Shown here: positions 1 through 16,372 of the stretch, piece after piece | Numbering within the stretch: the first letter of the stretch is position 1 | Layout: the number at the start of each line of letters is the position of its first letter | NCBI RefSeq assembly: GCF_040892545.1 | Contig: NZ_CP156079.1 | Span: forward strand, 3,011,501-3,075,500 | Source of the DNA: Paracidovorax avenae | Lineage (GTDB): Bacteria; Pseudomonadota; Gammaproteobacteria; Burkholderiales; Burkholderiaceae_C | DNA length: 64,000 nt | Direction: 5' to 3' | Program-made: the position numbers and the translations under genes | Notes under the pieces: model-generated | Databases searched by the model: none | What the model saw: only the letters and a program-made list of their open reading frames with translations | Told to the model about the DNA's origin: nothing

Positions 1-2232
1 GGCATGGGCATCCCCGGCGCCGAGCGCGCGGCGGATGGCGGGCTCGTCGAACCGCATGCCGGCAATGGCATACGTGGCCACGGTGCACATGTCGCCCAGG
101 CTCCCCGCGAGGTCCGCAATGGACTCCACGGCGCAGCGGCTGGCCTGGTAGGAATTGCCGGTGGGCAGGTGAGACAGCGAGGACAGCAGGCCGGCGAACT
201 GCCCGGCATGGCGGTCATGGTGCAGCCGCAGCCATTCCAGGAGGTAGGGGTTGCGCTTCTGCGGCATGTTCGACGAACCGCCGTACATGGCCTCCGGCAG
301 CTGGACGAAGCCCGTTTCCCGCATCGTCCAGAGTTGCAGGTCGGTGGCGAGCCGGTTCAGGTGGCCGCTCAGTTCGATGAACAGGTAGGCGCAGCGCAAT
401 GCCGGCGTCTTGTCGCTGATCGCGGCCAGGGAATTGGAGGGCCCGCGCACGCAACCCAGCAGGCGGGCGGTTTCATGGGGGGCCGTGCGGAAGGTGGTGC
501 CGGCACCCGCGCACGCGCCGAGCGGCGAGGTGTCCAGGCCGCCCTGCAGCGACGCCAGCGCCTCCATCGTGCCGAGCAGGACCGTGGCCTGGGCCGCCAG
601 GTAGTGGCCCGCCGTGCCGGGCATCGCCACCTGGTACTGGCTATGGATGGGCCATGTCGTTTCCACCGTGGCTTCGGCGCGCTGCAGCAGGGCTTCGCCG
701 AGTTGCAGCGCGCGGTCCATGGTGCCCGAGATGGCCTGCCGGAGCGCCAGCAGCAGGTGCGTCGCATTGATGTCGTTGCGCGAGCGCGCGGCCTGGACCA
801 TGCCGCCCGTGGCTTCTCCGCACCGGTCGATGACGTAGTGCTCGTAGTCGAAGTAATCGCCGCGGCCGGAGGCATGGGCACGCAGCAGTTCCGGCTCCGC
901 CTCGGCCGCCAGCACCGCCTTCCGGAGCGCGCCGAACTGCCCGGCGGACAGGATGCCCTGGCTGCGCAGCATCAGCAGGTGCGCCTTCTCGATCGGGAAC
1001 AGGCTGCCCGCCAGGCTGCCGGGGCGGAATGCGCTGCGTTCGCCCAGCGCGATGCCGCGGACCGTGGCCGCATCCGGCAGGGGAGCCTCCGGTGGTGCGT
1101 AGAGGACCCGCGACCGGGCCCGCAGCGACAGCGCCGCGCGCAACGCCGACGACGCCGTGCGGCCGCCGGCGATCACGTAGCCGGCGCGGTCGGAGAAGTC
1201 GAAGCGGCCCTGGTTGGTGCCGCCCTCCCCGAATGCACCGGCATCGGTGGCATCCTCCGGAAAATCGATGCCCAGGTAGCGGCGCCCGGCATCGGGGACG
1301 ATGAAGGCGACGGCGGCATGGAGGGCGGGCTCCGGCACGGCGAACTGGCAGCGCCCGGCCAAATGGCTGCGCACGTACAGGTCGGCGACGGACCAGCCGA
1401 AAGCGAGCTCCAGCAGGCGCGGGATCATGCCGCCCGCGAGCCGGGCATTGATCTCGATCACCGTGGCGACATCGCCCTGGAGCTTGACCTCGGTGTGCGC
1501 AGGCCCGAAGGCGTAGCCGACCGCGTCGAGCGCCCGGGTGACGGTCTCCACGATCCTGCGGGCCGCGTCCGGGCCGATGTCCGCCGGGAGCACGTGCGCG
1601 AGCTCCAGGAAGTGCGGGGGCCGCGTGAGGTACTTGCGCGTGACCGCCAGCACGTGGTGCCCGGCGGCGTCGCTGAAGGTCTCCACCGAGAACTCGGTGC
1701 CTTCCACGAAGCGCTGCGCGATCCAGGGCCCGTCCTGCGCACCGGGCATGCCGCGGGCCTCGGTGACGAGCCGCACGCCGATGCTCCCGGTGCCCTGCCG
1801 CGGCTTGACGATCGCGGGGAGCCCGATGCTGTCCATGTCCCCGGCAGAGCGCACCTCCCGCGTCGCCGGATACGGCACGCCACGGAACTGCAGCACCTCC
1901 CCCAGCCGCAGCTTGTCGCGGCACAGCGCGATCGCGGCGGAAGGATTGCAGGGCAGGCCCAGCCGCTCCGACAGGCGCGCGGCCATCTCGATGAAGCCGT
2001 CGCTCGTGGAGGCGACGTACCGGATGGGACCGATGCCGGACACGGCCTGCACCAGTGCATCGAGCGATTGCGTATCGCAGGCGATGGTGGACAGCCCCGC
2101 GGGCAGCCGGCCGGCGAAACCATAGCGGGCCGGGTCCCGGACCAGCCAATAGACCGCGCCGTACCGGCACGAGGTCTCCAGCAGCCGGTGGCCGAAGCCG
2201 GTGGTGTTGGACTCGATATAGACGATCGCCAT
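1..2232 (-). CDS. ATP-grasp / argininosuccinate-lyase fusion protein (C-terminus beyond window)
   Basis: Two enzymes in one chain, open for 744 codons from the ATG at 2232 to the window edge without a stop. Residues about 1-385 form an ATP-grasp ligase: Lys143 lies in a VKPRQGTGSIGV-like nucleotide loop, and Glu260 and Asn262 of EINARLAGG match the metal-binding pair. Residues about 400 onward are an aspartase/argininosuccinate-lyase superfamily domain with RSRND at 483-487 and the signature GSSNMPQKRN, with the serines at 653-654. The usual THLQ motif reads SQYQ, so the customary catalytic His appears to be Gln. It starts 3 nt after the PLP-enzyme stop, so it is third in an operon. Inferred role: cleaving fumarate from an aspartate adduct, and ligating an amino acid with ATP. 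The substrate is unknown. Confidence 0.85.
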   Translation of the reverse strand, partial: MAIVYIESNTTGFGHRLLETSCRYGAVYWLVRDPARYGFAGRLPAGLSTIACDTQSLDALVQAVSGIGPIRYVASTSDGFIEMAARLSERLGLPCNPSAAIALCRDKLRLGEVLQFRGVPYPATREVRSAGDMDSIGLPAIVKPRQGTGSIGVRLVTEARGMPGAQDGPWIAQRFVEGTEFSVETFSDAAGHHVLAVTRKYLTRPPHFLELAHVLPADIGPDAARRIVETVTRALDAVGYAFGPAHTEVKLQGDVATVIEINARLAGGMIPRLLELAFGWSVADLYVRSHLAGRCQFAVPEPALHAAVAFIVPDAGRRYLGIDFPEDATDAGAFGEGGTNQGRFDFSDRAGYVIAGGRTASSALRAALSLRARSRVLYAPPEAPLPDAATVRGIALGERSAFRPGSLAGSLFPIEKAHLLMLRSQGILSAGQFGALRKAVLAAEAEPELLRAHASGRGDYFDYEHYVIDRCGEATGGMVQAARSRNDINATHLLLALRQAISGTMDRALQLGEALLQRAEATVETTWPIHSQYQVAMPGTAGHYLAAQATVLLGTMEALASLQGGLDTSPLGACAGAGTTFRTAPHETARLLGCVRGPSNSLAAISDKTPALRCAYLFIELSGHLNRLATDLQLWTMRETGFVQLPEAMYGGSSNMPQKRNPYLLEWLRLHHDRHAGQFAGLLSSLSHLPTGNSYQASRCAVESIADLAGSLGDMCTVATYAIAGMRFDEPAIRRALGAGDAHA

Positions 2233-2235
2233 GGC

Positions 2236-3240
2236 TCAGCCGAACGCGTGGATCTCGGAACGGTTCCATGCCATGCAGGCCCAGTCGCTGCCCGCCCTCT
2301 CCGACCGCGGATGCCGGACCTGGACCGGCTGGACCCCGAAGTGGTCCGCGCACGGAGGGTCGCTGGCATAGGTGGAGTCCACGTAGCGCGACCCGTCGTC
2401 CGGGCTCACGAAGACGATGGGCGTGGACGGGTACTGCGCCTGCAGGCTTCCCGCCACGGCATAGGCCGCTCCCGTGGTGGGTCCGCGGAAATGGCCTGTG
2501 GTCTTGTAGAGGTGGCGGGTGTAGTGGTCGGCCAGGGGGGCGCTGATCCAGTGGACATGGTCGAACATCGAATGCTTCAGGTTGCCCGGCATCACGGTGT
2601 TGCCCAGCCCGCGCAGCGGGCGCGGGCCGTCGGGCTGGCCGAACAGGATGCTGTTGAACGTGTCCACCCCGACCAGCGTGCAGTCGGCGCCGGCCGCGCG
2701 CAGCGCCCCGGCGAGGCCGCAGCTCGAACCTCCGGAGCCCACGGGCGCCACGAGGACGACCGCGTCGCCGACCAGGTCGCGCAGCTGGCGCCCGATGCCC
2801 TCGTAAGCCAGCGAGTTGTCCTCGTTGTCGTACTGCCGGCACCAGAACGATCCGGGTTCGGACTCCAGGATCTCGTGGAGCCTGTCCAGCCGGGCCTTCT
2901 GGTAGCCCTGGCAGCCCTTCTTGTCGGTGACGATCTCCACGCGCCCACCCAGCATCTCGAGCTGGCGCCGGTAGCTGTCGTCGATCGCCGGGTCGCTGAT
3001 CGCGATGAAGCGCGAGTTCATGCGATTGCAGACCATCGCCATGCCGAATGCGAAATTTCCGCTGGAAGTCTCGATGACGCTGCCGCCGGGCTTCAGGTCG
3101 CCGCGGGCGATCGCCTTGTGGATGATGAAGTGCGCGGGCACGATCTTCATCGCCTTGAACGCCAGCATGTGCATTCCCTCGTCCAGGGGAAAGACGACGG
3201 CGTCGCGCATGGCATCGAGGGGGGATTCGTAACGGAGCAT
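2236..3240 (-). CDS. PLP-dependent beta-replacement enzyme (cysteine synthase / SbnA-like)
   Basis: Fold-type II PLP enzyme of 334 residues related to cysteine synthase, cystathionine beta-synthase and SbnA. The cofactor-phosphate loop TSSGN is at residues 58-62. Lys32 (AMKIVPAH) aligns with the Schiff-base lysine of the family, though its surroundings differ from the usual GSVKDR. A glycine-rich [10 protein letters not shown] loop follows later. The start at 3240 (MLRYES) lies 7 nt after the stop of the upstream kinase, and the stop precedes the ligase/lyase fusion by 3 nt, so the three are probably co-translated. Family members replace an activated beta-leaving group (O-acetyl or O-phospho) with a nucleophile. 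With a kinase upstream and a lyase downstream, the likely substrate is O-phosphothreonine or O-phosphoserine and the likely nucleophile an amine such as aspartate (inference). Confidence 0.85.
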
Positions 3241-3247
3241 CTGCGAT

Positions 3248-4147
3248 CTAGGCGGTGGTGTAGAGGTGGGTGGAGATGTCGAGGGCCTGCAGCCGCTTCT
3301 GGGCATGGAAGGCCTTGGCGGCGCACTCGGGATCGCGCGCGCCGTAGAGCAGCCCGATGTAGGTGCCCGAATGCGCGGCCACCATGCCCAGGGCGCCGGT
3401 CTCTTCCTTCAGGGCGCGGAGGTGGCCGATGTGCGGATGGGGGTTGAAGGCCTGCGAGATTTCGCAGCTGCGCGTCGCGACCTCACCGATCCTGCGCAGG
3501 TCCACGGCACGGGCGGCGGACTTCATGTCGTCGAGCAGCGCGTGGTACTCGGAGCACAGGGCACTGGAGACCGCGCACCGCGTCCGGTTGAACTCGATCG
3601 TGTCGCATTCGCCGCCGCGGTCGGTCCCGACGATCATGAGCTCGGGCGTCTCGCCCAGCTGCTCGTCGAGCTTCACTTCCCGGTGGTAGAAGGAGACGAT
3701 GCCGTCGTACATGACCCCGTCGGTGGGTTCGATGCCGCGGAGGATGGACTCGATGGTCTCGGCCTCCGGTTCCCGCCCGTGCGCGCGGGCCGTCGCCCGG
3801 ATGACGGCCACCATGTCGGCGGAGGAGCTCGCGAGCCCCTTGCCCGCCGGGAAGACCGACTGGAAGTGCAGCCGCCCGCCCGGCGGCAGGCCATGCAGGC
3901 GCAGGTAGTCCTGCGCGGCGCGGCAGGCCTTCGTGCGGCAGGCGATATTGCAGACCACCGCGGGCCCGTCCGTCACCTGGAATTCGACGATGGACATGAG
4001 ATTGACCGGCAGGGTCACCAGGAAGTGCCTGCCCCCCGGCAGCACCCCCTGCATGAGCTCGCCGAAGGTGCCCCGGCACTGGCCGGTGGCCCGCAGCGGC
4101 GGCCAAGTGGCGGACTGAAGCGCTTCTCCTCGTTCTTGCGGAACCAT
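3248..4147 (-). CDS. GHMP-family amino-acid kinase, PduX-like
   Basis: Small-molecule kinase of 299 residues. The N-terminus ([12 protein letters not shown], about residues 23-34) resembles PduX, the L-threonine kinase of cobalamin synthesis. The GHMP phosphate-binding motif 2 is [13 protein letters not shown] at residues 99-111. PduX makes O-phospho-L-threonine. Here no cobalamin gene is nearby; instead the product probably feeds the PLP enzyme 7 nt downstream as an activated beta-phospho amino acid. Threonine versus serine cannot be decided from sequence. The ATG at 4147 has a good Shine-Dalgarno (AAGGAG, about 5 nt upstream), which lies inside a predicted leader hairpin. It is the first gene of the operon. 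Confidence 0.85.
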
Positions 4148-4219: not shown

Positions 4220-4350
4220 CCAAAGATTGCTCAGTCCTGTCGAGAAATTGCTGTGCCGCGGCGCTCTTGCAGCCGGCTTCCGGCCGGCGTACATTGGGAC
4301 GGTTGGCCAATCGTCTCCACCCGCCTTCGCGGGCCGATGGGCGCGAGGAA

Positions 4351-4423: not shown

Positions 4424-6511
<2,088 letters not shown>

Positions 6512-14359: not shown

Positions 14360-16372
14360 ATGCAAGACAGCACATCTCCCGCCTCCGGGGCGGGTACGGA
14401 TACGCGCATCGTGCGCGCCGCCATCCACCCCGCCATCGGCATCGCCCGCGTGGGCAACAGCCGGGAGGATTTCTACATCGGCCCGCAGGTCACCCATCCC
14501 GCCCCCCGGGAGCCCGGCTTCTACCGAGATCCCACGGGAGCGCTCAAGCGCGAGGCAGCCGAGTTCCGCATCTATGGCTACAACGCCGCGGGCGAGGTGG
14601 TCCGCGAACTGTCGTCTCCTGCGGACGACATCACCTGGGAGGTCCACGTCGCCAACCGCAAGGCGGCCTGGTACCAGTGGCAGATCGCCATGGACATCCC
14701 GGAGGCGGCCAAGGTCGTCCTGCCCCGCCGCAATGCCAACGTGACGGCGCCCGCGCGCAATACCCTGGCCATCGACGCCGGCGCGCAGCGCATCCAGGGA
14801 CCGCATGCCGCCGCCGTCGCGTGCATGGGCCACTTCACCGGCGTGGCGGTGCAGATCGGCGAACTGCGCACCGACGGCCAGGGCCGGCTGCTGTTCCTGC
14901 CCGGCCACGGCGTCTCCGCCTCGCCCACGGGCAGCCCGATCTTCATCGAGGGGGACGACAACTCCTTCATCAATGCCGACGGCTGGTACGACGACACCTG
15001 CGACGGCCCTGTCTCCGCCACGGTGCGCATCGACGGGCAGCCGGTCCCGGTGGAGGGCGCCTGGGTGGTCAGCGCCCCGCCCAATTACGCGCCCCAGGTC
15101 AAGGCCGAACGCACGCTGTACGACCTGCTGCACAGTCTCTACATGCAGGCGGGCTGGCTGCCCTTCCCCAGGGAGATCTCGTTCACGCGCGATGTGTACC
15201 CCATCCTGCAGCGGCTCTCCGGGCTGCAGTGGGTCAACCAGGGATTCGCGACGCAGTTCGGCCACAACGGGGTGTTCGATTTCGAGCACCCGGCGTTGAT
15301 CGAGCGCCTCGCCGCCCTGCCCCCGGACGGCGCCTACGACCCGAACGCGGAAGTGCGCCGGCAGGTGTTCAACAGTTTCCGCCCCCCCGAGCCGGCAGAC
15401 GGAAACCAGATGCCCTGGCCCTGGATCTATGGCGACGCCATGACCAACCCCGCGGGCCAGAGCCCGCGCCAGAACGCCGCCATCAGCCAGACCCAGAGCG
15501 ACATCCTGGCCCGCTGGGCGGACGGCCGGTTCACTGCGGACTGGGGCACCGTGCCCGCCCCTGCGGACCACATCGACGCCGTGCCGCTGCAGGAGCAGCC
15601 GGCCATGCTCGACCGGGCCGCCCTGGAATTCTGCCTGGCCGATGCCTTCCACCCCGGCTGCGAACTGACCTGGCCGATGCGCCACCTCACCCTCTACAGC
15701 GCACCGTTCCGCATCCGCCGCCGGCCGGCGGGCGAAGTGGAGCGGGACTACGGCAACACGCTCGACCAGGCGACCGCGCTCTCGGCGAACGGGCCGCTGT
15801 ATGCGCAGGGTCCCGGCGACCTCAATCGCTGGATGGGCCTGCCCTGGCAGGCCGACACCGCCTTTTGCCGCGCGGGCTACGACACGCGTTACGACCCGTT
15901 CGCTCCCGCCTTCTGGCCGGCCCGCGTGCCCAACCAGGTGCTTGCCGAACAGGACTACGCCATCGTGGTGGACTCCGCCCAGCCGCCAGAGCGCCGCGTG
16001 GAGGCGTTCACCAACCGCACCGACTGGAACAAGCCGCTGCCCGGCGGCACCGCCGAAGCAATGACGACGATGGTGCGCATCTTCGGATCCATGGGCCTGC
16101 TGGAGGTGCGCCCGGGCGTGCAAGGCGATCCGCGTTTTCCCGCCACGATGATGGTGGCGTCCTACGGCCCCGACGTGGCACCCGCCGACGCCCGCAGCAC
16201 TGCCGGCACGACCGCCGCACCGGCCGGCGATGCGGTGCGGCCCATGGGCCTGCAGGCCGTGGCACCCGCAGGGGGAGCGGCCCGCCCGCTGCCATCCGGC
16301 GCCAACTTCCGTTCGCACGACGATGCCCGCAGGGCGCCCCTGCCTGTCCGCAAGGGCCCGCCCCGGGCATGA
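14360..16372 (+). CDS. LodA/GoxA-type cysteine-tryptophylquinone amino-acid oxidase
   Basis: 670-residue protein of the LodA family (L-lysine epsilon-oxidase, glycine oxidase), whose members form a cysteine tryptophylquinone from their own Cys and Trp and deaminate amino acids with release of H2O2 and ammonia. The start motif AAIHPAIGIARVGNS is typical. Candidate cofactor residues are Cys434 (AFHPGCELTW) and Trp496 (GLPWQADTAFC), 62 residues apart; LodA itself has a comparable spacing. No signal peptide is seen. The ATG at 14360 follows a GAGGG Shine-Dalgarno. It overlaps the LodB-like gene by 4 nt, matching the known need for a partner flavoprotein. The amino-acid substrate is unknown. Confidence 0.88.
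   Translation: MQDSTSPASGAGTDTRIVRAAIHPAIGIARVGNSREDFYIGPQVTHPAPREPGFYRDPTGALKREAAEFRIYGYNAAGEVVRELSSPADDITWEVHVANRKAAWYQWQIAMDIPEAAKVVLPRRNANVTAPARNTLAIDAGAQRIQGPHAAAVACMGHFTGVAVQIGELRTDGQGRLLFLPGHGVSASPTGSPIFIEGDDNSFINADGWYDDTCDGPVSATVRIDGQPVPVEGAWVVSAPPNYAPQVKAERTLYDLLHSLYMQAGWLPFPREISFTRDVYPILQRLSGLQWVNQGFATQFGHNGVFDFEHPALIERLAALPPDGAYDPNAEVRRQVFNSFRPPEPADGNQMPWPWIYGDAMTNPAGQSPRQNAAISQTQSDILARWADGRFTADWGTVPAPADHIDAVPLQEQPAMLDRAALEFCLADAFHPGCELTWPMRHLTLYSAPFRIRRRPAGEVERDYGNTLDQATALSANGPLYAQGPGDLNRWMGLPWQADTAFCRAGYDTRYDPFAPAFWPARVPNQVLAEQDYAIVVDSAQPPERRVEAFTNRTDWNKPLPGGTAEAMTTMVRIFGSMGLLEVRPGVQGDPRFPATMMVASYGPDVAPADARSTAGTTAAPAGDAVRPMGLQAVAPAGGAARPLPSGANFRSHDDARRAPLPVRKGPPRA

Follow-up and report, generated by a model that had tools for sequence, protein, structure and literature searches.

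What would a bacterium make with five genes for a kinase, a pyridoxal 5'-phosphate (PLP) enzyme, an ATP-grasp/lyase fusion, a formyltransferase and a tRNA deacylase of archaeal type? This question is raised by an operon at the left end of a 64,000-nt stretch of the 5.6-Mb genome of Paracidovorax avenae (G000:C1:3011501-3075500, hereafter the window). The operon extends 2.2 kb to the left of the window and comprises genes for a kinase, an SbnA-like PLP enzyme, the fusion protein, the formyltransferase and a DTD2-like (PF04414) deacylase, followed by a convergent AraC gene. Our answer is tentative: quite possibly, this horizontally spread operon produces a small 2,3-diamino acid bearing a formyl group and keeps its toxicity in check. 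Observed directly, and given as such below, are the genes and their order, their conservation, family assignments to the degree given, two model folds and an empty site. In the literature searched, where most subscription papers are missing, neither a paper describing the operon nor a published test of the four-enzyme route was found.

In the route that we propose, the kinase would phosphorylate Ser or Thr, and the SbnA-like PLP enzyme would swap the phosphate for an amine, whose likely source is the amino group of aspartate. The ATP-grasp domain would act on the aspartate adduct by a putative ligation, before or together with the lyase domain, which would release fumarate and free the second amine. 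The formyltransferase would then cap an amine, the exporter LysE, encoded in the operons of relatives, would export the product, and the DTD2-like enzyme would free tRNA mischarged with the product or with its D or adduct form. 2,3-diaminopropionate is favoured over 2,3-diaminobutyrate, because SbnA and a neighbouring gene in Acetoanaerobium (see below) both point there. We favour the view that export and tRNA editing protect against the product, either as alternatives or jointly.

Gene content and layout of the operon

The first gene (3248..4147, minus strand) encodes a GHMP kinase of 299 amino acids (aa; PF00288, 1.7e-9), a putative Ser/Thr (or homoserine) kinase. The second (2236..3240, minus strand) encodes the fold-type II PLP enzyme (334 aa), which may catalyse a beta-replacement. 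Its start was taken as the ATG at 3240; the mechanical start of the open reading frame (ORF) at 3306 would overlap the kinase gene. The fusion gene, also on the minus strand, runs leftwards from 2232 to position 1 and ends 339 nt beyond the window edge, at 15662 of L003, the 16 kb to the left of window base 1; 744 of its 856 aa lie in the window. The first-pass annotation had described three tightly spaced genes with gaps of 7 and 3 nt, and exactly these gaps are present (3241-3247 and 2233-2235). It had also recognized the PLP enzyme and the ATP-grasp/lyase fusion, and the matches to PALP (1.8e-32), ATP-grasp_4 (4e-17) and Lyase_1 (1.4e-26) all exceed the Pfam cut-offs, as does that of the kinase to GHMP_kinases_N. 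In addition, NF002563 (PRK02186, ATP-grasp/lyase) matches residues 1-742 of the 744 in the window with 822 bits versus a cut-off of 625. The observation is therefore not due to chance.

The expected continuation of the operon to the left was found as well. The formyltransferase gene (L003 14847-15665, minus strand; PF00551, 5.6e-15) overlaps the fusion gene by 4 nt and is separated by 59 nt from the deacylase gene (L003 13822-14787, minus strand, start taken at 14787; PF04414, 6e-24). The AraC gene (L003 12925-13815, plus strand; HTH_18, 1.5e-24) ends 6 nt past the deacylase gene. A search for a non-ribosomal peptide synthetase (NRPS), also suggested in the first pass, yielded none near the operon: the seven condensation-domain matches of the genome are located 1.3 and 2.4 Mb away, and an NRPS partner beside the operon was rejected on this ground. 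Cobalamin or staphyloferrin genes, which had been named as findings that would overturn the 2,3-diamino acid proposal, are absent among the five operon genes and the next two genes to the left, ppa and an HD-domain gene. The left side is annotated as far as this HD-domain gene at L003 10565.

The operon in relatives and at empty sites

Eleven operons were compared: our own, seven loci from a scan of genome contigs and three fetched from Paraburkholderia searches. As our own operon and those of L009 and L010 are near-copies, the number of independent cases is smaller. The kinase, PLP enzyme, fusion, formyltransferase and convergent AraC genes are present in 11/11. A DTD2-like gene is found in nine, and a gene for a LysE exporter (PF01810) follows the formyltransferase gene in eight; every operon has at least one of the two. 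In the genus of genome G1025, six of 144 genomes carry a DTD2-like gene, in all six cases inside this operon. The kinase by itself is found in 3/399 genomes of the order. Together, these loci suggest that a compact set of genes for a small amino acid exists in Burkholderiales and Halomonadaceae.

Within the genus, the PLP gene is present in 4/17 genomes. For an empty-site test, both flanks were compared in six genomes of the genus. One of them, G1172, carries the block; the PLP gene is absent from the other five. In four of these five, about 7.5 kb are missing at this place: the flank on the ppa side (up to L003 12724) and that on the hppA side (from window position 4255) are 29 nt apart in the sister genome G1177, about 40 nt in G1171 and about 120 nt in G1178 and G1179. 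In G377, no match to the hppA-side flank was obtained. The boundaries of the block therefore lie at 4254..4255 on the right and L003 12724/12725 on the left. It is neighboured on the left by ppa and on the right by hppA (4424..6511, plus strand; PF03030, 890 bits), which encodes an H+-pumping pyrophosphatase and lies outside the operon. The empty site and the patchy presence in the genus argue for horizontal transfer. Foreign base composition failed as evidence for transfer, the operon having 70.1% guanine plus cytosine versus 70.5% in the window.

Kinase and PLP enzyme

The first-pass label of a PduX-like kinase holds loosely. In an alignment covering 89%, the protein shares 28.6% identity with an annotated PduX, a similarity that by itself does not tell the substrate; no NCBIfam threonine-kinase model matches at E 0.001. 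The motifs GKG and SSSAD are invariant in 32/32 aligned relatives. In a structure model with a predicted local distance difference test (pLDDT) score of 89.4, the nearest structure is homoserine kinase, followed by other GHMP kinases. Judged from sequence and model, Thr, Ser and homoserine are all possible substrates.

The PLP enzyme is 98% identical to its counterpart in Paracidovorax oryzae. Its closest named relative is SbnA of the SbnA/SbnB pair of staphyloferrin B: SbnA (TIGR03945) is the best NCBIfam model with 197 bits, the best PDB matches are SbnA entries, and K32, invariant in 10/10 sequences, aligns with the SbnA lysine of GSMKD. Unlike the staphyloferrin system, the five operon genes include a lyase and no SbnB-like gene, and the PLP enzyme stays below the SbnA equivalog cut-off of 349.95 bits. 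Membership in a staphyloferrin B pathway was rejected for these two reasons.

The DTD2-like deacylase

The deacylase passes the PF04414 gathering score with 85.1 versus 33.6 bits. Residues H91, H149, H217, E174, G176 and S177 are invariant in 31/31 aligned bacterial proteins, and the stretches around them align with archaeal AF0625. The model (pLDDT 96.4) retrieves archaeal PF04414 proteins at Foldseek ranks 1-4, PH0006 and AF0625 first, with template modelling (TM) scores by target of 0.82-0.84; other folds among the 50 matches listed reach a TM of at most 0.57. In terms of the model, DTD2 is the clear nearest fold. DTD2 has been described as an archaeal and plant enzyme in the available text of PMC10942605. 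Our protein shares with archaeal and plant DTD2 (PMC10942605; PDB 2gfq, 1yqe) the family PF04414, the fold and the His, Glu and Gly motifs. Unlike them, it belongs to a distant bacterial subfamily and is encoded in a biosynthetic operon, the ordinary DTD1 gene being located in another part of the genome. Among the papers listed for DTD2 in bacteria, no title mentions a biosynthetic gene cluster.

In genome collections, PF04414 is above cut-off in one of the 274 genomes of the class, our own, with one further genome weakly below, and a DTD2-like protein is found in 1/398 genomes of the phylum, again only our own. A protein search retrieved many bacterial members, among them proteins from Burkholderia, Bradyrhizobium and Shimia; contexts were opened within this operon type. 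The ordinary DTD1 family is present in 9/9 genomes or records tested. This means, the DTD2-like gene is an extra, and a role as the general chiral proofreader of the cell was rejected. Some DTD2-like and formyltransferase matches lie on contigs of equal size, e.g. 248048 in Shimia thalassica, which hints at linkage outside Burkholderiales; short contigs coincide by chance, too.

The single record with a DTD2-like gene in the plasmid collection is from Acetoanaerobium noterae (L028:3715-9911). The encoded protein and ours share 36% identity across 309 positions. A gene for diaminopropionate ammonia-lyase (TIGR03528, 573.5 bits versus a cut-off of 532.25) precedes its ORF, unannotated in the record, by 56 nt, and ABC transporter genes follow. 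This ties the DTD2-like subfamily to 2,3-diaminopropionate independently of any other gene of our operon.

A bold, and at present rather doubtful, extension would be that bacteria have adopted a tRNA deacylase of archaeal type for the specific purpose of guarding against 2,3-diamino acids. In the biosynthetic operon, it would clear tRNA mischarged with the formylated diamino acid antimetabolite that the cell itself makes, and it would do likewise beside the ammonia-lyase in a diaminopropionate degrader, with LysE export being interchangeable or additive. If true, a bacterium making an unnatural amino acid would protect itself by tRNA proofreading, and a deacylase class described from archaea and plants would have a bacterial role.

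The main rival explanation, somewhat unlikely in our view, retains the same diamino acid chemistry and differs in the last step: the DTD2-like protein would hydrolyse an acylated, e.g. formylated, diamino acid, thereby serving maturation, turnover or self-immunity without acting on tRNA. The Acetoanaerobium neighbourhood, in which the gene is located between ammonia-lyase and ABC transporter genes as in a catabolic set, would suit such a small-molecule hydrolase, as would the formyltransferase of our own operon. The subfamily is, furthermore, far from archaeal DTD2 (16-19% identity in structural matches) and misses the NCBIfam deacylase equivalog NF003072 (45.3 versus 272 bits). However, DTD2 is its nearest fold, and the His, Glu and Gly motif residues are kept, which argues against this rival.

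The ATP-grasp/lyase fusion and the core cassette

The fusion matches the 'argininosuccinate lyase' PRK02186/NF002563 over its full length and above the curated cut-off. The function of this family is a name only, and in contrast to the motif expected from the name, YTHxQ, the lyase domain reads HSQYQ; thus, the motif His is gone. The GGSSNMPQKRN loop is retained. Nine of the 14 fused lyases seen were aligned: all nine have [HY]SQYQ, whereas 6/6 unfused lyases have YTHxQ. E. coli aspartase AspA has RTQLQ at the corresponding place, so that the Gln of the fused lyases is aspartase-like. We take this site to be the His position of fumarases and lyases, which fits the alignment. At the sequence level, Gln for His speaks against the label argininosuccinate lyase for the domain. 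In a tree of 14 of the 15 aligned lyases (the near copy L009 was left out), the fused ones are located on one side of a branch with a fork support of only 80/80; hence, the Gln/His contrast may reflect a single event. The Kitasatospora lyase (L022:7424-8935) reads ISAAMPQKRN, with Ala replacing the second Ser of the GSS loop, and its catalytic serine may therefore be missing.

The core cassette was followed on plasmids, where 12 loci were opened by choice among the best matches. Ten were counted as having kinase and PLP enzyme; this number leaves out L026, where the kinase is found with no match to a PLP enzyme, and the deacylase locus L028, and L007 and L060 are one plasmid, counted once. The match from Streptomyces sp. 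NBC_01707 and further Streptomyces matches are not among the loci opened. ATP-grasp and lyase are both present in nine of the ten; the tenth, from Paraburkholderia phymatum, instead encodes a PLP enzyme whose C-terminal domain is GNAT. The fusion partner of the ATP-grasp domain is the lyase in Burkholderiales, Halomonadaceae and rhizobia; in Streptomyces globosus and Kitasatospora, it is the PLP enzyme (Pfam-confirmed for S. globosus). Because of these alternative fusions, with the PLP enzyme in two loci and with the lyase in our operon, ATP-grasp probably acts inside the pathway, between PLP enzyme and lyase, and not after them. It is thus likely an integral step of a fumarate-releasing diamino acid route. 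In Streptomyces and Kitasatospora, the cassette adjoins NRPS or adenylation genes in 4/4 loci opened. No NRPS is listed in the Azospirillum, Sulfuriferula and rhizobial stretches, whose gene tables are incomplete.

These data bear on the first-pass version of the pathway, in which kinase, PLP enzyme and lyase finish the diamino acid and ATP-grasp then couples it to a partner. The proposal that the cassette makes a 2,3-diamino acid, starting from a hydroxy amino acid that is phosphorylated first, is backed by context, i.e. relatedness to SbnA, likeness to PduX, adjacency to NRPS genes and the Acetoanaerobium link; its final-ligase part is not. That ATP-grasp would join another amino acid to yield a (formylated) dipeptide is suggested by its nearest PDB relatives, which include the dipeptide ligases BL00235 and BacD. 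We regard this as unlikely, since ATP-grasp is kept with the lyase even beside NRPS genes, where a free amino acid would serve, and because two loci have it joined to the PLP enzyme. Moreover, S. fredii and R. gallicum encode a second, stand-alone ATP-grasp of the amino acid ligase type, which is the better candidate for a final ligation.

PurC and PurB ligate aspartate to a carboxylate and then remove fumarate, leaving an amide. A corresponding pair here, yielding the amide of a beta-substituted amino acid and no diamino acid, would give ATP-grasp a natural place ahead of the lyase and agree with the joint presence or absence of both, often fused, in nine plus one of the ten plasmid loci, but is quite improbable, as L059 has ATP-grasp without a nearby lyase and the nucleophile of the SbnA-like enzyme is left unexplained.

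Evidence against the proposed route

Several points weigh against a formylated 2,3-diamino acid guarded by LysE and the DTD2-like enzyme. The chemistry at each step is read from enzyme families, as are the product and the function assigned to the deacylase, and at three places the stricter family models fail: in addition to the missed SbnA and deacylase cut-offs, the fusion scores 159.3 bits versus the argH (TIGR00838) equivalog cut-off of 279.5, and its lyase motif has lost the His. The operons of Salinicola and Halomonas lack the DTD2-like gene, and their genomes show no PF04414 match. Three Paracidovorax operons, ours included, lack LysE. In six distant Paraburkholderia loci, the kinase gene is accompanied by one for a long PLP enzyme (542-563 aa), with neither ATP-grasp nor lyase matched; the stretch of L059 encodes a kinase, a PLP enzyme and an ATP-grasp, and no lyase. 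The link of Acetoanaerobium to diaminopropionate comes from one record, the single DTD2-like locus opened outside these operons.

Related systems

The 4-formylaminooxyvinylglycine (FVG) operon gvg is the closest analogue in logic. According to the accessible part of PMC8064604, it resembles our operon and its relatives in having a formyltransferase and LysE (here in relatives), in being a compact non-NRPS operon and in making a small amino acid. Unlike gvg, our operon has the kinase/PLP/ATP-grasp/lyase core. Membership in the FVG family was rejected, as the carbamoyltransferase GvgF is absent among the five operon enzymes (by Pfam; the rest of the genome was not searched).

Another likeness is that to the DabABC genes for 2,3-diaminobutyrate in friulimicin and laspartomycin, for which the consulted passages of two papers describe a cysteine-synthase-like PLP enzyme and propose a diamino acid from Thr (PMC4052310, PMC11117518). 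In the same passages, DabB is likened to VioK rather than to a lyase (PMC4052310), and a friulimicin-like cluster has cysteine-synthase and argininosuccinate-cleaving genes (PMC11117518). They mention no formyltransferase, LysE, AraC or DTD2-like gene for DabABC-type clusters. The gausemycin cluster contains cysteine synthase and argininosuccinate lyase genes, according to part of PMC12471526; its support is mixed, because the cluster of another gausemycin producer lacks both. Whereas Dab genes serve an NRPS, our operon has none adjoining. The uridyl-peptides (pacidamycin) offer a further parallel.

Variants of the cassette

Among the six distant Paraburkholderia loci, a C-terminal GNAT domain was confirmed in two of two scanned; in L055, the long PLP enzyme is encoded 4.6 kb from the kinase on the opposite strand. 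Together with L008, these loci (L053-L058) combine a kinase with a long PLP enzyme (GNAT in three scanned), lack ATP-grasp and lyase, and perhaps represent a shorter route to an acetylated product. The three genes of L059 (L059:3718-12475) lie in a row and possibly form a lyase-free metallophore set; nearby are genes for a TonB receptor and for a DUF364 heavy-metal chelation protein as well as a long ORF of hydrophobic appearance, maybe a transporter. On the Sulfuriferula plasmid (L060:82-10185), the four-gene cassette is accompanied by a haem-oxygenase-like enzyme, PhzF, a transporter of the major facilitator superfamily (MFS) and a second ATP-grasp, which resembles a complete small-molecule cluster without NRPS. 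A gene for a GntG-family PLP aldolase is found near the cassette in S. globosus (L021:12238-13284) and S. fredii (L024:16615-17658), where it might supply a beta-hydroxy amino acid.

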